Shown here piece by piece: positions 8,182-60,859 of a DNA stretch of 64,000 nucleotides. The stretch spans positions 310,001 to 374,000 of the forward strand of contig NZ_VOGY01000003.1 of assembly GCF_008033385.1 (NCBI RefSeq). Reading direction: 5' to 3'. The notes under the pieces were generated by a model. That model was not told where the DNA came from. It ran no database searches and worked only from the letters and a program-made list of their open reading frames with translations. Every line of letters begins with the position of its first letter. The stretch's first letter is position 1. Source of the DNA: Algibacter pacificus. GTDB lineage: Bacteria > Bacteroidota > Bacteroidia > Flavobacteriales > Flavobacteriaceae. The position numbers and the translations under genes were made by a program.

Positions 8182-8419
8182 TGTAATCTATATTTTTGTT
8201 GTTAACCTCTAACAAAAAAGGATGAAAGCTATAATTTCAATTTATTAATAGCGTTGAATCTAAAAAAAATATCATAAAAATGGAATAAAAAGAGACTTTA
8301 AAAGGGGATGAATTTTTATTCTTTTGCTAGGAGTGTAAGTTTAGCAATAAAAACATGACAAAAGTCAGCGTAAATCAAAATACAAGATGCTAATTTTGTA
8401 TAAGTTAAATAATAACATT

Positions 8420-16704: not shown

Positions 16705-19680
16705 ATGATATACGATTTCAATAAAATCGAAGAAAAGTGGCAAAAATATTGGGCAGATAACCAAACGTTTAAAGCCGAAAACCAAAGCGAAAAACCAAAA
16801 TATTATGTGTTAGATATGTTCCCTTACCCAAGTGGAGCGGGCTTGCATGTTGGGCATCCGTTGGGTTATATCGCATCCGATATTTATGCGCGTTACAAAC
16901 GCCACCAAGGCTTTAATGTATTGCATCCGCAAGGGTACGATAGTTTTGGTTTGCCTGCCGAGCAGTACGCTATACAAACGGGGCAGCATCCGGCGGTAAC
17001 CACTAAGGAGAATATTGCAACGTATCGTCGTCAACTCGATCAAATTGGATTTTCATTCGATTGGTCGCGTGAAGTCAGAACCTCCGATCCTCAATATTAC
17101 AAGTGGACCCAATGGATTTTTATTCAATTATTCAACTCTTGGTACAATAACGATACGAATAAAGCTGAAGATATTTCGACTTTAATTTCCATTTTTGAAA
17201 CGGAAGGTAATGCCACAGTAAATGCGGTTTGCGATGATAACATCGCTGCATTTACAGCAGCCGAATGGAAGGGGTATACAAGCAAAGAACAACAAGCTAT
17301 TTTATTACAATATAGATTGACTTATTTAGCTGAAACGGAAGTAAACTGGTGTCCTGCATTAGGAACGGTTTTAGCAAATGATGAAATCGTTAACGGGGTT
17401 TCCGAACGTGGAGGTCACCCGGTTATTCGTAAAAAAATGACCCAATGGAGTATGCGTATTTCTGCTTATGCGGAACGTTTGCTTCAAGGTTTAGATAAAG
17501 TGGATTGGACCGATTCTTTAAAGGAAAGTCAGCGTAATTGGATTGGAAAATCGGTTGGTGCAGCTGTTACATTTAAAGTGAAAGACAGTGATGCCGTTAT
17601 CGATGTGTTTACAACTAGACCAGATACTATTTTTGGTGTAAGCTTCATGACGCTTGCTCCAGAACACGACTTGGTGTCTCAATTAACAACGCCAGAGCAA
17701 AAAGCTGAGGTAGAGGCTTATATTTTAGCAACGGCAAAACGTAGCGAACGCGATAGAATGGCTGATGTAAAAACCATTTCTGGTGCTTTTACTGGAGCTT
17801 ATGCCGAGCATCCTTTTACAAAAGAACCCATTCCAGTTTGGATTGGCGATTACGTTTTAGCGGGTTATGGAACGGGAGCAGTGATGTCTGTGCCTTGTGG
17901 CGATGAAAGAGATTATGCCTTTGCGAAGCATTTCAATATTCCAATTATAAATATTTTTGAGGGCGTTGATATTTCAGAAGCAGCCTTTACAGATAAAGAA
18001 AAAACCGTTATCGGGAACAGTGATTTCCTTAATGGTATGAATTATAAAAAAGCCACCAAACGTGCTATTTTCGAATTAGAAAAAATAGGGCAAGGTGAAG
18101 GAAAAACCAATTACCGTTTGCGCGATGCTGTTTTTAGTCGTCAGCGTTATTGGGGAGAGCCATTCCCGGTGTATTATGTAGATGGTATGCCTCAAATGAT
18201 TGCTGCCGAACATTTACCAATTACATTACCCGAAGTAGAAAAATATTTACCAACCGAAACCGGCGAGCCGCCATTGGGGAATGCTACCGTTTGGGCTTGG
18301 GATACCACTAAAAACGAAGTCGTTTCTAACGATTTAATCGATAATGAAACCATCCATCCATTAGAACTTAACACCATGCCAGGTTGGGCAGGAAGTTCTT
18401 GGTATTTTAACCGCTACATGGATTCTACAAACACCGAAGAATTTGCGAGTAAAGAGGCTTTAAACTACTGGAAAGATGTGGATTTATACATTGGTGGAAG
18501 CGAGCATGCTACAGGACATTTACTGTATTCTCGTTTTTGGCAAAAATTCTTGTTCGATAAAGGTGTTGTCCCTGTTGATGAGTTTGCTAAAAAACTGATT
18601 AATCAAGGGATGATTTTGGGGACTAGTGCTTTTGTATATAGATTTTCTTGGATGATTGTATCAAATACAGATGAAGCTTTTGATATTTTAGATCCTAAAA
18701 TGCCTTCTTTTTTCATTACGAAATCGAAGTTTGAAAAAATGAAGAGTGGTGATGTTGAAGAGATCAAAAATGCTAAGGAATTTTTCTTGAGTACCTTAAA
18801 TGAAATTTTTCCTGATTCTGATATTAAACTAGGTGATGAAATATCATTACAATTGGTTCCAACACATGTTGATGTTTCTTTTGTAAACTCATCGGATGAA
18901 TTAGATATTGAGCAATTCAAAAACTGGAGAACAGATTATACAAATTCTAAGTTTATAAATGAAGATGATGGGACATACAAAGTAGGTCGCGAAGTCGAAA
19001 AAATGTCCAAATCCAAATACAACGTCGTAAATCCAGACGATATTGTTTCAGATTACGGTGCAGACAGTCTGCGTTTATACGAAATGTTCTTGGGGCCATT
19101 GGAGCAATACAAACCATGGAATACAGCCGGAATTACAGGTGTGCACAACTTCCTTAAAAAACTATGGAAATTGTATGTGGATGATAACGGACTGAAAGTT
19201 TCAGAAGCAGCAGCAACAAAAGATAACTTAAAAACACTTCATAAAACCATTAAAAAGGTTCAAGAAGATATCGAGAATTTCTCGTTCAACACATCGGTTT
19301 CAACCTTTATGATTGCTGTTAATGAGTTCACTACGCAAAAATGTACATCAAAAGAAGTATTAGAGCCGTTATTGGTTTTATTATCCCCTTATGCGCCACA
19401 TATTGCAGAAGAGTTATGGAACCAATTAGGAAATAGCGCATCTATTTCTACGGCAGCTTTTCCAGAATTCGATGCCAGCCATTTGGTAGAAAGCAGTAAA
19501 AATTACCCCATTTCTTTTAACGGGAAAATGCGCTTTACAATGGAATTACCTATGGATATGAGCAAGGACGATATTGAAGCCGCTGTTATGGCAAACGAAA
19601 AAACACAAGAGCAACTTGCTGGGCGTACCCCTAAAAAAGTGATTGTGGTCCCTGGGAAAATTGTAAATATAGTAGGCTAA
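16705..19680 (+). CDS. leuS: Leucyl-tRNA synthetase with enlarged insertion
   Basis: A 991-residue class I synthetase that charges tRNA-Leu. The HIGH motif is HVGH (48-51) and KMSKS is at 766-770. The editing (CP1) domain is visible from about residue 230 to 420 with TRPDTIFGVSFM and the GTGAVMSVPCGDERDY block. The protein is long. Bacterial LeuRS is usually about 820-880 residues, and flavobacterial enzymes carry an insertion between INQGMI and VEKMSKS. Here that insertion is about 130 residues (roughly 637-765), including a charged stretch (KFEKMKSGDVEEIKNAKEFF) that I do not recognise from relatives. All catalytic blocks are intact, so the enzyme should be functional. A terminator follows. 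Confidence 0.97.
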   Translation: MIYDFNKIEEKWQKYWADNQTFKAENQSEKPKYYVLDMFPYPSGAGLHVGHPLGYIASDIYARYKRHQGFNVLHPQGYDSFGLPAEQYAIQTGQHPAVTTKENIATYRRQLDQIGFSFDWSREVRTSDPQYYKWTQWIFIQLFNSWYNNDTNKAEDISTLISIFETEGNATVNAVCDDNIAAFTAAEWKGYTSKEQQAILLQYRLTYLAETEVNWCPALGTVLANDEIVNGVSERGGHPVIRKKMTQWSMRISAYAERLLQGLDKVDWTDSLKESQRNWIGKSVGAAVTFKVKDSDAVIDVFTTRPDTIFGVSFMTLAPEHDLVSQLTTPEQKAEVEAYILATAKRSERDRMADVKTISGAFTGAYAEHPFTKEPIPVWIGDYVLAGYGTGAVMSVPCGDERDYAFAKHFNIPIINIFEGVDISEAAFTDKEKTVIGNSDFLNGMNYKKATKRAIFELEKIGQGEGKTNYRLRDAVFSRQRYWGEPFPVYYVDGMPQMIAAEHLPITLPEVEKYLPTETGEPPLGNATVWAWDTTKNEVVSNDLIDNETIHPLELNTMPGWAGSSWYFNRYMDSTNTEEFASKEALNYWKDVDLYIGGSEHATGHLLYSRFWQKFLFDKGVVPVDEFAKKLINQGMILGTSAFVYRFSWMIVSNTDEAFDILDPKMPSFFITKSKFEKMKSGDVEEIKNAKEFFLSTLNEIFPDSDIKLGDEISLQLVPTHVDVSFVNSSDELDIEQFKNWRTDYTNSKFINEDDGTYKVGREVEKMSKSKYNVVNPDDIVSDYGADSLRLYEMFLGPLEQYKPWNTAGITGVHNFLKKLWKLYVDDNGLKVSEAAATKDNLKTLHKTIKKVQEDIENFSFNTSVSTFMIAVNEFTTQKCTSKEVLEPLLVLLSPYAPHIAEELWNQLGNSASISTAAFPEFDASHLVESSKNYPISFNGKMRFTMELPMDMSKDDIEAAVMANEKTQEQLAGRTPKKVIVVPGKIVNIVG

Positions 19681-43406: not shown

Positions 43407-43983
43407 TTTTTACAAGTATCAGTTGTTTAAGTGCTGTCTCTCTTCGGTCGACATGATTGATGATGCTATAAAAAGAAAATGCCGGAGTTATTTCGACGTA
43501 AGGAGAAATCGCATCCTAACTTGCGACTGTTGAGTCTGTTTATGTGATGTCTCTCTACGGTCGACATGACAAATAATGCTATAAAAAAAGAGAACTAGAA
43601 TTACAGAAGAAGAAACATGGGCTTCTTTGTCATTTCGACGTGAGGAGAAATCACATCCTGCTTTGCCGTTGCTAGTCGGTAATTTGAGGAAGGGCATTTG
43701 GATTAATTTTTACAAGTATCAGTTGTTTAAGTGCTGTATCTCTTCGGTCGACATGATTGATGATGCTATAAAAAGAAAATGCCGGAGTTATTTCGACGTA
43801 AGGAGAAATCGCATCCTAACTTGCGACTGTTGAGTCTGTTTATGTGATGTCTCTCTACGGTCGACATGACAAATAATGCTATAAAAAAAGAGAACTAGAA
43901 TTACAGAAGAAGAAATATGCGGTTTTCTGTCATTTCGACGTAAGGAGAAATCACATCCTGCTTTGCCGTTACTGGTCGGTAAT
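43384..43983 (+). repeat. 300-bp tandem duplication of palindromic repeats
   Basis: Two nearly identical copies with a period of exactly 300 bp (43384-43683 and 43684-43983); for example AGGGCATTTGGATTAATTTT occurs at 43391 and 43691. Only scattered single-base differences are visible (such as TGTCTC/TGTATC at 43436/43736). Each unit starts in the last codons of the gene at 43113 and contains a right arm (43433-43457), a full palindromic unit (43485-43570) and a left arm (43629-43660) of the repeat family seen at 12568. The duplication must be recent. Confidence 0.9.
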
Positions 43984-43985
43984 CT

Positions 43986-44118
43986 CGCGATAGGGATTGC
44001 AGAGGCATCCTTTTTTTGCTAGCCAAAACTTGATTTTTTACTGAATTTTGTTTGAAATGGACAGATCTTGAAACAAGTTCCGAATGACTTTGCAAAAAAA
44101 GATATAGCGGAAAGCCCG
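43986..44118 (+). repeat. Structured intergenic element, copy A
   Basis: GCGAT, AGGGATTGCAGAGGCAT, a hairpin (CTTTTTTTGC at 44010-44019 with GCAAAAAAAG at 44092-44101) enclosing a large loop, then ATAGCGGAAAGCCCGG. It shares flanks with copies B (53343) and C (28868); the distal AGGG and outer stem are degraded here. Confidence 0.6.
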
Positions 44119-44186
44119 GTTTATTTTGGCTTTTTTCGGCCAAAATAAAATTGCCAAAAACATATAAAACCAGTGTTCCCGATTCT

Positions 44187-53498: not shown

Positions 53499-56087
53499 TT
53501 ATGCTGAGTTTCTACTAGCATTAATGTTTCCGAAAAGTGATCGGGTTACAATTTTTTCGAAAATTTTAATTTGTTCTTCATCACGCACTTCGGCTTTTTC
53601 TAATTCTTGAATCTTTTTAAGCGCATATTGTTGTATGGTTAACAACGGCAACACAATAGATTCGCGAACTTGAATAGAGGCGCGGCCTGCGGGCTCGTTT
53701 TCCATAAGTTCTTTATAGCCTGTTAGTTTTAATAATAGGGCTTTGGTCGATTTGTATTCGTTATAAATAATATCCCAAAAGGCCCCAAACTCTTCGTCGT
53801 TGGACATGTATTTTGTTAAATCGAAAAACGATTTTGTTAAAGACATCATACTGTTTTCTAGCAGTGTTTTAAAGAATTTCGAGTTGTTGTATAGTTGTTC
53901 AACTTTATGAAACTCGCCACGATCTTCGTAAGCTTTTAATGCTTTTCCTACTCCGAAAAATCCTGGTACGTTTTGTTTTAACTGGCTCCAAGATCCCACA
54001 AAAGGAATAGCTCTTAAATCTGAAAACACCAATTTATCTGATGAGCCACGTTTTGATGGACGCGATCCAATATTTGTTTTTGCATAAAACTTTAACGTAC
54101 TCATACGCTCTAAGTACGGAATAAACATCTCGTGACTTTTAAAGTCTTTATAAGCGGTATAGCTCATTTCAGCAAGGTCGTTCATTACAATTTTATCTTC
54201 CTCGCTCATGGGTTCGTTATTTTTGCCAATTCGATTAGAGATTCCAGAACTTATTAATTGTTCTAAATTATATTGCGATGATTCTAAAGTTCCAAAATTA
54301 GAACTAATAGTTTGCCCTTGTATGGTTAATTGTACTTCTTTATCCTCGATTGTAGGTCCTAAAGATGAGTAAAATTGGTGTGTTTTTCCACCACCACGTG
54401 CTGGAGGTCCACCGCGACCATCGAAGAAAATAGCTGTAATATCGTATTTTCTAGAAATGGCTGTTAAGCGTTCTTTGGCTTTGTAAATTCCCCAGTTTGC
54501 CATAAGGTAACCACCATCTTTGGTACCATCTGAAAACCCTAACATAATAGTTTGTTTATTGCCTCGTTTTTCTAAATGGGCACGGTAAACAGGATTGCTG
54601 TACAATTGCTCCATTACATCTGGTGCATTTTCTAAATCTGGAATGGTTTCAAAAAGTGGTGCTACATCTACGGTTAAATCATCTTTAAATGCAACTAATT
54701 TAAGCATAGCGAAAAGTTGCATCACGTTTAAAGCGGTTTGGTTGTTACTAATAATGTAACGGTTTGCACCACGCTCGCCATTAGATTTCTGAATTTTTTT
54801 AATAGCCTTAATGGTTTTTAGCGTGTTGCTTACCATTTCGTCTTCAAAAACATCGATATCTATTTTGTCTCCACTTACTTCTGATAGAATTTTAACTTGT
54901 TCAGTATCTGATAAATCGTGATAATTTTTTGGGAACGATGGGTGGTTATTTTCAATTAAGTGATTAATTACTGTTGTAAATACACTATGGTGAATACGAC
55001 TATCTTGTCGAATATCTAAGGTTGCGAAATTGAATCCGAAAAGGTGAATTTTGTTTATTAAGCTATTAATTTCATTAACATAAAGCGATTGGTGATCGGT
55101 TTCAATAATACTTCTAATATTTAATAATTCTTGAAGTAATTCCTTAGCGGTTATTGTTTTTTCGGTCTTTAAATTTATACTATAATTATAAAGGATTTTT
55201 TCTAATTTAATAATACGCTCTTCCACACCTCTAAAGGTAAGCTTACGTCTTAAGTTTTTAATATCTGCATGATATTTTTTAAGTATGGCTTGCTTTAATT
55301 TATTAGCAACTTTAATAGTTGTATTTGGTTTTACAAATGGGTTTCCATCTCTATCACCTCCTGGCCAAAAACCAATATTTATAATCTCGTTATGTTTTTT
55401 TGTATCGTCGTAAATATTAGCTTGAATATAGTTGTAAATATCTCCAAAGGACTGATAAAACACATTTTCTAAGTACCAAATTAAACTTTTAGCCTCGTCG
55501 TAAGGTGTTGGTTTTGCACGTTTAAAAAATGGTGTTTTTCCTAACTGGGCAAATAGGTCGTTTATACCATTTAGGTTGTTTTCTTTAACGGCTTTAGCCA
55601 AATCTGTAATAATTCCTAAAACCGATCCGGGGTAAAACTGCGTTGGGTGCGCGGTTAAAACAATACGTACTTTAAATTCTTCAAGATAATTTTGAAGGTC
55701 TTCTAATTGATTTACCGAAATAGCCGCTTCTTTAAGGTTTCTAAGGGTTCCAATACCTTCCATATTATTTACAATAGGGAAAGCAGCATCTTCAACCGCA
55801 TCAAACAAAACGACTTGACGTTCTATATATTGAATAAAACGAAATAATAAATTTATTTGGCTTTCTTCCGATCGGCGCGCTTGATATTTTTCGAAAAACG
55901 TATTCACTATCGTTGTCGGGTTATCACCCTTAGCAAAACCTTTTTCACAAGTTTCATGAAACAATGGTAGTAATACTCCCGTTTTTGTGATAGTATCAAA
56001 AGGTAATGTCATAAAAATACTATTGTAAATTTGGTATTTAGACAATACACTTTGATTAAATCGTGTTAATTTTGGCTCTACAGACAT
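53499..56087 (-). CDS. ppc: Phosphoenolpyruvate carboxylase
   Basis: An 862-residue PEPC that fixes bicarbonate onto PEP to make oxaloacetate, an anaplerotic step. Active-site blocks are intact: LTAHPTQFYPGSVLG, GFWPGGDRDGNPFV, LGFSDGTKDGGYL and FFDGRGGPPARGGG. The C-terminus is NASRNSA in place of the RNTG that ends most PEPCs. Its promoter region is shared with the divergent gene at 56376. Confidence 0.96.
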   Translation of the reverse strand: MSVEPKLTRFNQSVLSKYQIYNSIFMTLPFDTITKTGVLLPLFHETCEKGFAKGDNPTTIVNTFFEKYQARRSEESQINLLFRFIQYIERQVVLFDAVEDAAFPIVNNMEGIGTLRNLKEAAISVNQLEDLQNYLEEFKVRIVLTAHPTQFYPGSVLGIITDLAKAVKENNLNGINDLFAQLGKTPFFKRAKPTPYDEAKSLIWYLENVFYQSFGDIYNYIQANIYDDTKKHNEIINIGFWPGGDRDGNPFVKPNTTIKVANKLKQAILKKYHADIKNLRRKLTFRGVEERIIKLEKILYNYSINLKTEKTITAKELLQELLNIRSIIETDHQSLYVNEINSLINKIHLFGFNFATLDIRQDSRIHHSVFTTVINHLIENNHPSFPKNYHDLSDTEQVKILSEVSGDKIDIDVFEDEMVSNTLKTIKAIKKIQKSNGERGANRYIISNNQTALNVMQLFAMLKLVAFKDDLTVDVAPLFETIPDLENAPDVMEQLYSNPVYRAHLEKRGNKQTIMLGFSDGTKDGGYLMANWGIYKAKERLTAISRKYDITAIFFDGRGGPPARGGGKTHQFYSSLGPTIEDKEVQLTIQGQTISSNFGTLESSQYNLEQLISSGISNRIGKNNEPMSEEDKIVMNDLAEMSYTAYKDFKSHEMFIPYLERMSTLKFYAKTNIGSRPSKRGSSDKLVFSDLRAIPFVGSWSQLKQNVPGFFGVGKALKAYEDRGEFHKVEQLYNNSKFFKTLLENSMMSLTKSFFDLTKYMSNDEEFGAFWDIIYNEYKSTKALLLKLTGYKELMENEPAGRASIQVRESIVLPLLTIQQYALKKIQELEKAEVRDEEQIKIFEKIVTRSLFGNINASRNSA

Positions 56088-56349
56088 ATTTTCTTTTTCT
56101 ATTCTAAAATTAAAACATAAAAATACTAAAGCTATCTTTAAAGATAGCAGGCTGTTTAAAGTTTTATTAATTTTTGTTGTTTGTAGATTTCTTGTTATGA
56201 ATAATTTAAAAAAACAATACTTATGCCATATTGTTTACAATGAAGAAACTTAAAATCGCTGATTTTTCTGAATAATTTAAAATATGAAATTAACATTTAT
56301 ATCTATTTAAAACATGATATTTATCATCTTTATCAATCTATTTGCGCCC

Positions 56350-56357
56350 TACTTTTG
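56350..56357 (+). promoter_or_regulatory. -7 element for the TIM-barrel flavoprotein-like gene
   Basis: TACTTTTG matches TAnnTTTG. It overlaps a TTG codon at 56355, which supports the downstream ATG at 56376 as the real start. Confidence 0.5.
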
Positions 56358-56375: not shown

Positions 56376-58184
56376 ATGAAAAAAACACATTCATTTCATA
56401 TTCCTGTCATGGGAATAGGATTTACAATAGATACCCCTTTAAAAGTAGCGCAATACGGTATGGATTCTGTAATTTCTTTGGTAGATGATATTCTACTAGA
56501 AAAATTAAGAAAAATGTACAGCGAAAAATTTGAGGTGCCTTACCACGAAATTTCAGATAAAATAGAAGATTTTAGAGCCAAACGCATTACCTCTTATTTA
56601 AATCTAATTAGTGACTTAGCTAGTAAAAAATTTGAAGATTTAAAAAACGTATCGGCAGAAAAAAGTGAAGAACTTTTTAATTACATCAGCATGTTGCCGG
56701 ACGGATCTAAAATAAAATCTGAATTCGAAAAATTAACAGCTACAGATTTAGATTTCTCTAAGCTTAAAAACTGGGTTTCCAGTAATTTATCAATGGGAGC
56801 TATTGATGTTAATATTATGACTAAAGTCGACAAAGACAATTATATTAAAAACGAAAAACTACCTGTAGAATTTAACGATGCTCATGCGGCATTGCGTGGC
56901 TTTGCTAACAGTAAATTAAATTCTTCGGTAGTGCTTTCTGCGGGGATGAACCCAAGATTGTACGCTTATATGTCGCAATTTGAAGATTTTTTTCCAGATG
57001 AAAATGGGCTATTTAAAAAACGTATTATTTTAAAAGTTAGCGACTATAGATCGGCTTTAATACAAGGTAAATTTTTAGCTAAAAAAGGATTGTGGGTTTC
57101 GGAATACAGAATAGAATCTGGCTTAAATTGTGGAGGACATGCGTTTGCTACCGAAGGCCATCTTCTAGGTCCCGTATTGGCAGAATTTAAAGAAAACAGA
57201 GAAACATTGCAGCAATCTATTTATAGTGTTTTAACTCAAGAACTCTCAAATCAAAACAAACCCATTCCAACCGAAGACTTAACTTTTGAAATTACAGCAC
57301 AAGGTGGCGTTGGAACTTTTGAAGAACATGAATTTTTAATGGATCATTACAATTTGGATTCTATAGGCTGGGGTAGTCCGTTTTTACTAGTACCCGAAGT
57401 TACTGCTGTAGATAAAAAAACTTTAGACATGTTAGCTAAAGCTCAAGAAAAAGACTTGTATTTAAGTGATGTTTCTCCTTTAGGTGTGCCTTTTAATAAT
57501 CTTAGAAATAACACAAAGGATGCAGAAAAAGACGTTTTAATAAATAAAGGAAGACCCGGAAGTTCGTGCCCAAAGAAATTTGTGGCCTTGAATAAAGAAT
57601 TCAAAGAAACTGGAGTTTGCACGGCTTCTCGAGAATATCAGCATTTTAAAATTAAAGCACTAAAAGCGCAAGATTTATCGCCAGAAGAATACCAAAAACA
57701 ATACAAAAAAATTATTGTAAAATCTTGTACTTGTGTTGGCTTAGGGACATCGGCACTTTTAGCTTATAATTTAGACACTAAAGTAGAAGGTGAAGGCGTT
57801 TCCATTTGCCCAGGGCCTAATATGGCCTATTATTCTAAAGTAATGAGTTTAAAAAACATCACCGATCATATTTACGGTCGTGATAATATGGTTTCTCGTA
57901 CAGATCGCCCAAATTTATTTATTAAAGAATTGCAGATTTATATCGATTTTTTAAAAAATAAATTAGAAGAAGCGCGAGATTCTATGAATAAAAAAGAAGA
58001 AAAATATTTGCTCAATTTTACAAAAAACATGAAAATGGGTGTAGCTTATTATCAATCACTTTTTAATAACCTAAAAAGCGAATTTAAGGATATAAAGGAC
58101 ACGGTTTTATCTGAACTTTTTGCAAGCGAATTAACTTTAAACGAAATTCAATTAGAAGTGCAAAACCTAACGGTTAAGGCTTAA
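56376..58184 (+). CDS. Nitronate monooxygenase/FabK-like TIM-barrel protein with cysteine-rich C-terminus
   Basis: A 602-residue protein conserved in Bacteroidota but without an established role. The N-terminus (FHIPVMGIGFTIDTPLKVAQ) resembles the first strand of FMN-dependent nitronate monooxygenases. The segment SGLNCGGHAF (H255) matches their AGGH active-site motif, and ITAQGGVGTFEEHEFL (about 306-320) with DSIGWGSPFLLVPEVT matches the FMN-phosphate loop. A helical insertion occupies about 40-130. C398, C415, C451, C453 and C478 form a cluster that could hold an iron-sulphur centre. This reading is inference from motifs. The start is the ATG at 56376. Confidence 0.65.
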   Translation: MKKTHSFHIPVMGIGFTIDTPLKVAQYGMDSVISLVDDILLEKLRKMYSEKFEVPYHEISDKIEDFRAKRITSYLNLISDLASKKFEDLKNVSAEKSEELFNYISMLPDGSKIKSEFEKLTATDLDFSKLKNWVSSNLSMGAIDVNIMTKVDKDNYIKNEKLPVEFNDAHAALRGFANSKLNSSVVLSAGMNPRLYAYMSQFEDFFPDENGLFKKRIILKVSDYRSALIQGKFLAKKGLWVSEYRIESGLNCGGHAFATEGHLLGPVLAEFKENRETLQQSIYSVLTQELSNQNKPIPTEDLTFEITAQGGVGTFEEHEFLMDHYNLDSIGWGSPFLLVPEVTAVDKKTLDMLAKAQEKDLYLSDVSPLGVPFNNLRNNTKDAEKDVLINKGRPGSSCPKKFVALNKEFKETGVCTASREYQHFKIKALKAQDLSPEEYQKQYKKIIVKSCTCVGLGTSALLAYNLDTKVEGEGVSICPGPNMAYYSKVMSLKNITDHIYGRDNMVSRTDRPNLFIKELQIYIDFLKNKLEEARDSMNKKEEKYLLNFTKNMKMGVAYYQSLFNNLKSEFKDIKDTVLSELFASELTLNEIQLEVQNLTVKA

Positions 58185-58191
58185 ATTTAAG

Positions 58192-58226
58192 GCGTTTTGT
58201 TCTAATTGAACAAAACGCTTTTTTAT
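58192..58226 (+). terminator. Terminator after the flavoprotein-like gene
   Basis: GCGTTTTGTTC (58192-58202) pairs with GAACAAAACGC (58208-58218), followed by TTTTTTATTTTT. Confidence 0.85.
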
Positions 58227-58374
58227 TTTTGTTATTAATTTATGTATTTACTTAACAATAATTTAATAATTTAATAAAAAGAATGTCAGGTTTTAATAAC
58301 CACTCTTTTTTTACGTAATTCTGAATTTTATACTCATTTTAATTAAGATATTTGTACTCAAATTGAATATTACC

Positions 58375-59301
58375 ATGGATTTAGTAAAAGAAATAAATCG
58401 TTTAAAGAAAGAGAAAAATGCTGTTATTTTGGCTCATTACTATCAGGATTCGGAAATTCAGGATATAGCCGATTATGTTGGAGATAGTTTAGGCTTATCT
58501 CAAAAAGCTGCTGAAACCGACGCCGATATTATTGTATTTGCCGGCGTACATTTTATGGCCGAAACTGCTAAAATTTTAAATCCATCCAAAACCGTTCTTT
58601 TACCCGATGTAAATGCTGGTTGCTCTCTAGCAGATTCTTGTCAGCCAGCAGATTTTGAAGCCTTTACAAAACAACATCCAAACCATGTTGTTATTACTTA
58701 TGTAAATTGTTCGGCAGAAATAAAAGCACTAACAGATATTGTTTGTACCTCTTCCAATGCCTTGAAAATAGTACAATCTATACCAAAAGAAACCCCTATT
58801 ATATTTGCTCCAGATAAAAACCTCGGGCAATATATTATTAATGAAACGGGTAGAGATATGCTACTTTGGGATGGTAGCTGTATTGTTCACGAAGCATTTT
58901 CAATTGATAAATTAATTGAATTACACAAAAAATATCCCGAACATAAAATTATAGCGCATCCGGAATCTGAAACTCACATATTAGATACTGCCACTTACAT
59001 CGGTTCAACTTCGGGCATGATTAATTTTGTAAAAGAACATGCTAACGAAAAATTTATTGTAGCTACCGAAGCTGGTATTTTACACAAAATGCAAGAAGCC
59101 GTACCTAATACGGAATTAATTCCTGCACCGGCAAAAGATGATAATACCTGTGCCTGTAGTGAATGTCATTTCATGAAAATGAATACCATGCAGAAACTGT
59201 ATGATTGTTTACTGAACGAATCGCCACAAATTGAAATTGATAAAAAAATTAGTGAGCGCGCATTATTGCCAATAGAACGTATGTTAGAACTTTCAAAATA
59301 A
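58375..59301 (+). CDS. nadA: Quinolinate synthase
   Basis: A 308-residue 4Fe-4S enzyme that condenses iminoaspartate with dihydroxyacetone phosphate to quinolinate, the second step of NAD synthesis. Cluster and active-site cysteines are visible in [33 protein letters not shown] and [33 protein letters not shown] and [10 protein letters not shown] are family signatures. The start at 58375 ([10 protein letters not shown]) is preferred; an in-frame ATG 12 bp earlier is possible. It precedes nadB by 4 bp. Confidence 0.96.
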
Positions 59302-59305
59302 CAGG

Positions 59306-60859
59306 ATGAAGGCAGATTATTTAGTCATTGGTTCAGGGATTGCAGGATTAACATTTTCGGTCAAAATTGCCGAGAAGTTTCCGAAGAAAAATATAATTAT
59401 CGTAACAAAAGCTTCCGAAGAAGAATCTAACACTAAATATGCCCAAGGTGGTGTTGCTATTGTTTTAAACCACGAAAAGGATTCGTTTAAAAAACATGTA
59501 GATGATACTTTGGTTGCAGGCGATGGGCTTTGTAATAAGGCTGTAGTTGAAATGGTGGTTAATGAAGGCCCTAACAGACTAAAAGAATTACTAGAATGGG
59601 GTGCTAATTTCGATGAAGATGCCACTGGTAATTTGGACTTAGGAAAAGAAGGAGGACATTCAGAATTTCGTATAGTACATCATAAAGATATTACAGGTTT
59701 TGAAATTGAAACCGCTTTATTAAAGCGAGTTCATCAATTAGAAAATGTTACGCTATTACCGCATCATTTTGCTATAGATTTAATTACAAACCACCATTTA
59801 AAACATCCAAAACCATCTCAAAAAAAATGTTATGGCGCTTATGTTTTAAACCAAAAATCTGGAGAAATTTTCACTATAAGAGGGAATAGTACCTTATTAG
59901 CATCTGGAGGTATTGGACGCGTTTATGGGCATACTACCAACCCTGTTATTGCTACTGGAGACGGTATTGCTATGGCTTACCGGGCTAAAGTGAAAATTTC
60001 AGATATGGAGTTTGTGCAGTTTCATCCTACCGCGTTGTATGATGTACGCGGCGATCAATCTTCTTTTTTAATCTCTGAGGCCGTTCGTGGTTTTGGCGCT
60101 TATTTACGTAATAAAGAGGGTCATCGTTTTATGTTGGATTATGATGAACGTGCCGAACTAGCATCGCGAGATATTGTTTCACAAAGTATTGACAATGAAC
60201 TGAAAAAAACCGGAGAAACTCATGTGTTTTTAGATTGTTCGCATTTAAATATTGAAAAGTTTAAAGCCCATTTTCCAAATATTTACCAAAAATGTTTAGA
60301 TAATCATATTAATATTGAAACCGATTGGATTCCTGTGGTTCCTGCATCTCATTATTTATGCGGAGGGATCAATGTAGATTTAGATGGAAAAACATCTATG
60401 AAAAACCTTTTTGCCTGTGGCGAGTGCACAAAAACAGGGCTCCATGGTGCAAATAGATTAGCATCGAACTCCTTACTAGAAGCTATGGTTTTTGCTCACA
60501 ATATTTTTAAATATCATTGTGAACATCATTTAGAAACTTTAAATGTAGAAATCCCTGATTGGGATGATAAGGGAACAACCATTGCAAAAGAACATATTAT
60601 TATTCAGCATAATTTAAAACAATTACAAGCCATAATGCGTGATTATGTTGGTATAGTTCGCAGTAACGACAGACTTAACGGTGCTCGTAAACGTTTAAAT
60701 TTAATTTATGATGACGTAGAACCTTTTTATAAAAAATCTAAAATAACTACCTCACTATGTGAATTACGCAACATGCTAAACGTTGCTCATTTAATTGTGA
60801 ACCAATCTTTAGAACGAAAAGAAAATAAAGGTGGTTATTTTAATATTGATAATGTCTAA
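59306..60859 (+). CDS. nadB: L-aspartate oxidase
   Basis: A 517-residue flavoenzyme that oxidises aspartate to iminoaspartate for NadA. The FAD-binding N-terminus is DYLVIGSGIAGLTFSVKIAE; further family blocks are KYAQGGVAIVL, SGGIGRVYGHTTNP, EFVQFHPTALYD and HGANRLASNSLLEAMVF. It forms an operon with nadA (4-bp gap). nadC is not in the window. Confidence 0.97.
   Translation: MKADYLVIGSGIAGLTFSVKIAEKFPKKNIIIVTKASEEESNTKYAQGGVAIVLNHEKDSFKKHVDDTLVAGDGLCNKAVVEMVVNEGPNRLKELLEWGANFDEDATGNLDLGKEGGHSEFRIVHHKDITGFEIETALLKRVHQLENVTLLPHHFAIDLITNHHLKHPKPSQKKCYGAYVLNQKSGEIFTIRGNSTLLASGGIGRVYGHTTNPVIATGDGIAMAYRAKVKISDMEFVQFHPTALYDVRGDQSSFLISEAVRGFGAYLRNKEGHRFMLDYDERAELASRDIVSQSIDNELKKTGETHVFLDCSHLNIEKFKAHFPNIYQKCLDNHINIETDWIPVVPASHYLCGGINVDLDGKTSMKNLFACGECTKTGLHGANRLASNSLLEAMVFAHNIFKYHCEHHLETLNVEIPDWDDKGTTIAKEHIIIQHNLKQLQAIMRDYVGIVRSNDRLNGARKRLNLIYDDVEPFYKKSKITTSLCELRNMLNVAHLIVNQSLERKENKGGYFNIDNV

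Follow-up and report, generated by a model that had tools for sequence, protein, structure and literature searches.

A widespread protein of about 600 residues related to the nitronate monooxygenase/FabK barrels, with invariant cysteines and an FNR-type promoter element, in Algibacter pacificus and other Bacteroidota

The closest described counterparts of the protein considered here are the nitronate monooxygenase (NMO) and FabK barrels (PF03060), the PfaD-type enoyl reductases, and FabX, a dehydrogenase/isomerase of Helicobacter pylori. For NMO and the enoyl reductases three sequence motifs (I, II and III) have been described, of which motif III carries the proposed catalytic histidine (PMC13311796, in excerpt). 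FabX has an NMO-type barrel with an active-site histidine, and a C-terminal subdomain in which C300, C304, C308 and C320 are the ligands of a [4Fe-4S] cluster, according to an excerpt of PMC8626469; besides FabX, no NMO-type barrel with an Fe-S cluster was found. The family described here shares with the PfaD type the GGH histidine motif and a barrel with large helical additions, and PfaD together with the trans-acting enoyl reductases MlnA-ER and DfnA-ER are its best matches in Foldseek and VIA; however, it has no TIGR02814 match, it has six invariant cysteines, and no PUFA or polyketide synthase genes were recognised by eye near its gene. With FabX it shares the barrel type, the histidine and a cysteine-containing C-terminal part, but it is about 240 residues longer, its cysteines are spaced differently and its gene has a low-oxygen promoter. 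The GGH, GG-G-T and GSPF loops and a D-x-x-LS..G-P stretch are in hhalign register with NMO/FabK, whereas the family lies below Pfam detection, is 215–294 residues longer than the 75 NMO-type proteins compared (gathered with a length filter of 280–400), has NCGGH in place of EAGGH and carries extra C-terminal cysteines. Among the literature matches listed, judged by titles and abstract openings, no description of this family appeared. It is a widespread protein of about 600 residues with 48 absolutely conserved residues, and without a Pfam or NCBIfam name that its members reach. If it does hold an Fe-S cluster, it would represent, besides FabX, a second cluster addition to the NMO-type flavin barrel, with different ligands.

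The stretch of DNA analysed, called the window, comprises 64,000 nucleotides of A. pacificus, and all coordinates refer to it unless another contig is named. The features of the locus are as follows.

56314..56327, + strand: FNR-type palindrome ATGATATTTATCAT, centred at about -41.5 from the predicted transcription start (motif count in upstream regions)
56350..56357, + strand: -7 element TACTTTTG (Bacteroidota consensus TAnnTTTG, PMC6847099), with the predicted transcription start at about 56362
56376..58184, + strand: family gene, 602 aa, stop included (ORF call and full-length relatives)
56487..56786, + strand: helical insertion, residues ~38–137, between barrel strands 2 and 3 (secondary structure of the model; strands numbered by our own count on the predicted model)
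57129..57140, + strand: C252-G-G-H255, counterpart of the xEAGGH active-site loop of NMO/FabK/PfaD (invariance and hhalign register)
57297..57317, + strand: A308-Q-G-G-V-G-T, counterpart of the FMN phosphate loop (hhalign register; Q309, G310 and G311 invariant)
57567..57809, + strand: cysteine-rich segment C398, C415, C451, C453, C478, putative ligands of Fe-S or metal (invariant in 176/176 rows)
57915..58178, + strand: C-terminal helical part, residues ~514–601 (secondary structure of the model)
58189..58230, + strand: intrinsic terminator, a 14-bp stem (58189–58221) followed by a T run (hairpin folding against shuffles)

The open reading frame begins with ATG; a longer version starting with TTG at 56355 is also in the ORF list, but this codon precedes the predicted transcription start, which makes ATG 56376 the probable initiation codon. 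The hairpin of the terminator has a folding energy of -18.3 kcal/mol (z -6.37; none of 200 shuffles was as good). On the 5′ side, a minus-strand ORF (53499–56087), phosphoenolpyruvate-carboxylase-like by eye, starts at 56087 across the promoter; on the 3′ side, ORFs that by eye resemble nadA (58363–59301) and nadB occupy 58363–60859 (+). The initial annotation had assigned the gene a promoter and a terminator of its own, and the palindrome, the -7 element and the stem with its T run agree with this. It had also described a protein much longer than the NMO/FabK type with an inserted helical region, which the length (602 aa versus 308–387 aa in the 75 NMO-type proteins) and the insert seen in the model bear out; likewise, CGGHAF (C252 to H255 and beyond), AQGGVGT from A308, and five C-terminal cysteines with a CTC (451–453) are all where that annotation had placed them.

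At the level of single sequences the protein escapes classification. Pfam, NCBIfam, PADLOC and a sequence search of the PDB assigned it no family (the latter matched no barrel), and none of the members scanned singly reached a Pfam or NCBIfam cut-off. PF03060 gave no match at E ≤ 1 with the window protein, nor at E ≤ 10 with five distant members. Regarding TIGR02814 (PfaD), whose cut-off is 449 bits, the window protein had no NCBIfam match of any kind at E ≤ 1, the sole match in its own genome was to another gene at 20 bits, and the matches in 198 Bacteroidota genomes were all weak and below the cut-off. Three weak matches elsewhere were set aside: Spc29 (7/80 members, best 9e-4, residues 473–544 of the window protein) and an apolipoprotein (6/80 members, residues ~517–596), both in the helical tail, and NCBIfam NF001645 (PRK00420.1-2, "hypothetical protein"), found in 26/80 members with a best E of 4.1e-7 and far below its cut-off when members were scanned singly. 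In 20 members scanned in this way, the best-scoring one not among them, five matched NF001645 with 13–18 bits against a cut-off of 162; these matches span residues ~250–309, from the GGH loop through the helix that comes next.

In contrast with these searches, comparisons of profiles and of structure place the protein. The AlphaFold model, built with 56 relatives in the alignment, has a mean pLDDT of 65.1, with several central strands at 85–95 and the lowest confidence in the active-site loops (below 50) and the cysteine segment; a second structure model brought no improvement (61.9). Foldseek returned five matches with E < 0.001, all of them PfaD-type enoyl reductases (best E 2.9e-4), although with low TM-scores of 0.25–0.26 on the query and rmsd values of 14–17. 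The Z scores of VIA-align were 13.4 for MlnA-ER and PfaD, 12.3–12.8 for FabX, up to 11.1 for IMPDH, 11.0 for NMO and 10.9 for FabK, so that PfaD, MlnA, DfnA and FabX occupy the top rows of the two programs and NMO and FabK follow among IMPDH rows. Sequence profiles, which owe nothing to the model, give the same answer as the structure search: hhalign aligned the family with 20 diverse NMO-type proteins at a probability of 84–85% (E 6–8e-6), and residues 138–400 alone gave 71% (E 3.8e-5) with the same 20, versus 0.04% when this segment was reversed. The outcome depends on the set used, with 55–70% for all 75 NMO-type proteins and non-significant values of 3–14% for narrower sets of 30 and then 55 proteins (8–14% for the set of 55); a second family alignment gave 51% (E 1.5e-4), 50% and 5% with the sets of 20, 75 and 55, respectively. 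Eleven other families did not exceed 1.4% with the full family profile, nor five of them 1.7% with trimmed profiles, and reversed family profiles remained at or below 0.3% against the NMO sets and 4.2% against any set. Among the 75 NMO-type proteins, the top score with the HMMER profile of the second alignment corresponded to E 6e-4 (calculated for a nominal 1000 sequences), and the family profile also matches, over residues 295–404, two short proteins that are NMO-like by eye (E 1.3e-6 and 1.7e-6 per genome). The barrel is homologous to the NMO/FabK/PfaD/FabX superfamily, a placement that we hold with high confidence; the hhalign probability and the Foldseek and VIA-align matches uphold the earlier expectation of an NMO/FabK-type barrel, with a predicted fold that is itself of moderate confidence.

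The hhalign register brings the expected loops together. H255 falls on the histidine of the NMO GGH motif, GGVGT on GGVGx, GWGSPF on xxGSPF, and KDLYLS..SPLGVP on the D-x-V-LT..G-P stretch; thus, the proposal that CGGHAF and AQGGVGT are the active-site and FMN-phosphate loops has gained support from their register with those of NMO. The protein is quite likely to bind FMN. The family alignment has 176 rows, of which 175 are distinct; its sequences come from Bacteroidota and from the phylum to which a Desulfobacteraceae-titled genome belongs, and three short or broken loci of 188 (L165, L183 and L184) are left out. In it 48 positions never vary, and these include C252, G253, G254, H255, Q309, G310, G311, G331, W332, C398, C415, C451, C453 and C478. 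This computed invariance covers H255 and all six cysteines, whereas the earlier reading would have been refuted by a variable H255 or variable cysteines; it argues that the motifs are not due to chance. Of the described motifs, motif III keeps its GGH but reads NCGGH in 176/176 rows and EAGGH in none; the strict motif I, APMxG, occurs in 0/176, with a PV[ML]G placed by eye at residues 10–13 in 170/176; and motif II, [VI]SFHF[GN], is absent from all 176. C252 occupies the position of the Ala of EAGGH, and as its replacement it would stand beside the flavin.

The alignment columns that consist mostly of cysteine are those of C398, C415, C451, C453 and C478, plus that of C252, and no others. The spacing C398-x16-C415 is kept in 169 of the 174 rows matched by the search pattern, with C-x-C and CPGP downstream. 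To our knowledge this spacing fits no known Fe-S motif. The FabX arrangement, C-x3-C-x3-C-x11-C, is present in 0/176 rows, and therefore any cluster held by this family would have another arrangement. We consider it fairly likely that these cysteines bind a redox centre, and such a centre is probably of the Fe-S kind.

Relatives of the protein, with 43–89% identity and nearly always one per genome, were found in 71/199 genomes of its own taxonomic family and in 142/395 sampled genomes of Bacteroidota (about one third), among them species of Algibacter, Tamlana, Flavivirga, Maribacter, Aquimarina and Tenacibaculum. One of the 142 Bacteroidota carriers has a fragment at a contig end, and one genome has two full copies. 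In genome G290 an intact copy (L182) shares its contig with a broken second copy (L183), which lies towards the opposite end and is in pieces, one of them with three stops. Full-length copies are also present in 10/198 genomes of the phylum of the Desulfobacteraceae-titled genome, including that genome's own copy (L145). This last copy, likewise from a metagenome-assembled genome, is placed among Bacteroidota copies in the tree, and another, L086, from an assembly of the same kind named Chlorobiota, is 75% identical to the window protein and was left out of the tree; both may represent contamination. The other nine copies of L145's phylum fall in two other places, seven together adjoining the Bacteroidota copies and two elsewhere, one of the latter in DNA of 70% G+C; these positions suggest that the gene has been exchanged between phyla. 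No relative was found in plasmids, phages or viral contigs, so that, as far as searched, this is not a gene of mobile elements.

Two results go beyond the first reading of the sequence, namely this breadth of the family and its FNR-type control. The palindrome TGAYN4RTCA is present in 93 of 165 distinct upstream regions of family genes (that of the window gene included), versus 3.2 expected and a maximum of 11 in 100 shuffles; upstream regions that were identical or shorter than 200 bases were dropped from this count. After thinning at 80% identity it remained in 54/111, and by identity bin it was found in 35/50, 11/30 and, in the most distant bin, 8/31. Within the loci the motif precedes 92/166 family genes versus 57/1271 other genes. 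The strict FNR consensus TTGA-N6-TCAA occurs in 0/165 upstream regions. For ten copies from the Desulfobacteraceae-titled phylum, the 250 upstream bases scanned contained no palindrome of this type. When a TAnnTTTG box follows no more than 80 bases downstream, its distance from the centre of the palindrome is exactly 29 bases in 37 of 40 pairs, the window gene among them. For this box, the first T has been placed at -12 in Flavobacterium johnsoniae (PMC6847099, in excerpt). This position and the 29-base distance put the centre of the dyad at -41.5, the start itself being deduced from the -7 box. Crp/FNR activators of class II bind at this position.

Among groups of at least three genes in the same loci, those richest in the motif are a Maribacter-type nucleotidyltransferase-like group (4/4) and a cbb3-oxidase-like group (4/5), followed by a small lipoprotein-like group, a Crp/FNR gene and a P-type ATPase (2/3 each) and by HemN (4/7); names were given by eye, with Pfam checks on some representatives. 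In the A. pacificus genome the motif-plus-box pattern has 11 sites, versus one for the reversed pattern. Ten other genes follow these sites: nine match PTA_PTB, Glyoxalase_4, Asp-Al_Ex, Thioredoxin_9, Ribosomal_S30AE, Usp, COX1, Radical_SAM (HemN-like by eye) and an ArsR-type regulator, and one has no Pfam match. This set, with its pta, usp and hpf-type genes, is in its make-up an oxygen-limitation regulon. Three of the sites lie within 14 kb of contig C4 (315872–329806; loci L196–L198), upstream of Usp, of COX1 (cbb3-like by eye) and of the HemN-like gene, a trio that constitutes a low-oxygen gene cluster of the host. The window has a second palindrome with a -7 box at 8356–8398 (+), which corresponds to 318356–318398 of contig C3, 21 bases before the Thioredoxin_9 gene of 206 aa. 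We have little doubt that the family gene is under FNR-type control; the Crp/FNR homologues of Flavobacteriales have been treated as MalR-like (PMC8510549, in excerpt). Through its promoter the gene is linked, like a terminal oxidase and a HemN-like gene, to the response to oxygen limitation, and this makes its role directly testable.

Genomic context beyond the promoter is less uniform. Neighbours across loci include Rrf2, NrdD, NosZ/NosD, NirK-like, NorB/C/Q-like and ScdA-type genes (Pfam checks on representatives), and in the 199 genomes of the same family carriers are enriched in NirK (25/71 versus 13/128 non-carriers, p 5e-5), NosZ (43/71 versus 46/128, p 0.001) and NrdD (13/71 versus 8/128, p 0.014), by a Fisher test that ignores shared ancestry. 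The NirK count corresponds to the 38 of 73 genomes over the cut-off, and for NrdD 21 of 24 genomes were counted, namely those whose match has E below 1e-10; only 3 exceed the curated cut-off. The genome of A. pacificus has NirK and gave no match for NosZ or NrdD. A denitrification neighbourhood, striking in the first loci, was discarded since distant loci (6/38) did not differ significantly from control stretches of the same genome set (2/40); membership in an operon was also rejected, given that the neighbours of distant loci vary from locus to locus. The nadA-like gene lies 3′ of the family gene in 63/188 loci, 62 of them among L001–L148, and in the window the terminator stands in between. 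In genome G370 (L034/L171) a YgbA_NO gene (nitrous oxide-stimulated promoter) is located directly upstream of the family gene.

On balance, we lean towards an FMN oxidoreductase induced at low oxygen, with a cysteine-bound and probably Fe-S centre, that would act in the manner of FabX or PfaD and form a family of its own. Computation shows the homology, the invariant residues and the promoter element. In the mechanism that we propose, which supplies cofactors, electron path and partner, substrate and regulator by conjecture, a Crp/FNR-family activator bound at about -41.5 would switch the gene on, and a stand-alone cytosolic FMN-dependent enzyme would be made when oxygen is limiting. Residues ~5–380 would form the (beta/alpha)8 barrel of the NMO/FabK/PfaD/FabX kind, with the FMN phosphate held by the GGVGT and GWGSPF loops and with H255, next to C252, acting as acid/base beside the flavin N5. 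The five C-terminal cysteines would bind an oxygen-labile iron-sulphur cluster, most likely [4Fe-4S] with one cysteine to spare, which, like that of FabX, might serve as an electron relay linking the flavin with a one-electron partner. The substrate would most likely be an acyl thioester or another enoyl- or quinone-like molecule; the thioester taken singly is a tentative choice.

The alternative that survives best, although rather unlikely, is that the cysteines form a zinc site or a redox switch and that the barrel is an ordinary FMN-containing, NAD(P)H-dependent reductase without Fe-S. The spacing of the cysteines, which is not known to match any Fe-S motif, would allow it, as would five closely related copies in the tree (L327–L331, one lineage of the Desulfobacteraceae-titled phylum), in which the gene comes directly after FUR, ZnuA and two ABC transporter genes (ABC and ABC-3 types; Pfam for L327 only), a context that might reflect metal-related control. 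However, zinc-type genes adjoin the family gene in this lineage only, and six strictly invariant cysteines with low-oxygen control suit a labile cluster better than zinc or a switch.

It is distinctly unlikely that the protein is a true FabX-like acyl-ACP dehydrogenase/isomerase, which would provide unsaturated fatty acids without an oxygen-dependent desaturase. Oxygen-limitation control would suit such a role, FabX is among the best VIA rows, and its C-terminal [4Fe-4S] subdomain (PMC8626469, in excerpt) offers a parallel; on the other hand, the cluster spacing of FabX is missing from every row, no sequence match to FabX was obtained, and inspection by eye of the recurring neighbour groups listed revealed no fab genes. 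We regard as improbable in much the same degree a broader proposal, in which Bacteroidota, and relatives of sulphate reducers, would use an unrecognised oxygen-independent enzyme in place of a step that requires oxygen, for instance an Fe-S flavoenzyme that would introduce or isomerise acyl double bonds anaerobically with a cluster type unlike that of FabX.

A nitronate monooxygenase that detoxifies nitronates derived from denitrification is still less probable. The barrel with its GGH histidine and the enrichment of NirK and NosZ in carriers are in its favour, but the NMO reaction consumes oxygen, which is at odds with low-oxygen control; moreover, motif II and a PF03060 match are both missing, and A. 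pacificus already has at least two ordinary NMO-type genes (317 aa). Finally, a non-flavin TIM barrel that shares only the common fold with IMPDH or GMP reductase is most improbable, since PfaD and FabX outscore the IMPDH rows (which, at up to Z 11.1, are level with NMO and FabK in the structural comparison), and the GGH loop, like the GSPF and D-x-x-LS...G-P stretches, aligns with its NMO counterpart.

Two RNA matches were recorded elsewhere in the window. A match to Rfam IRE_II at 18005–18035 (+; 30.8 bits, E 0.065) is most likely due to chance, because this is an animal element; a Flavo-1 RNA at 43982–44125 (+) scored 44.2 bits, above the gathering score of its Rfam model.
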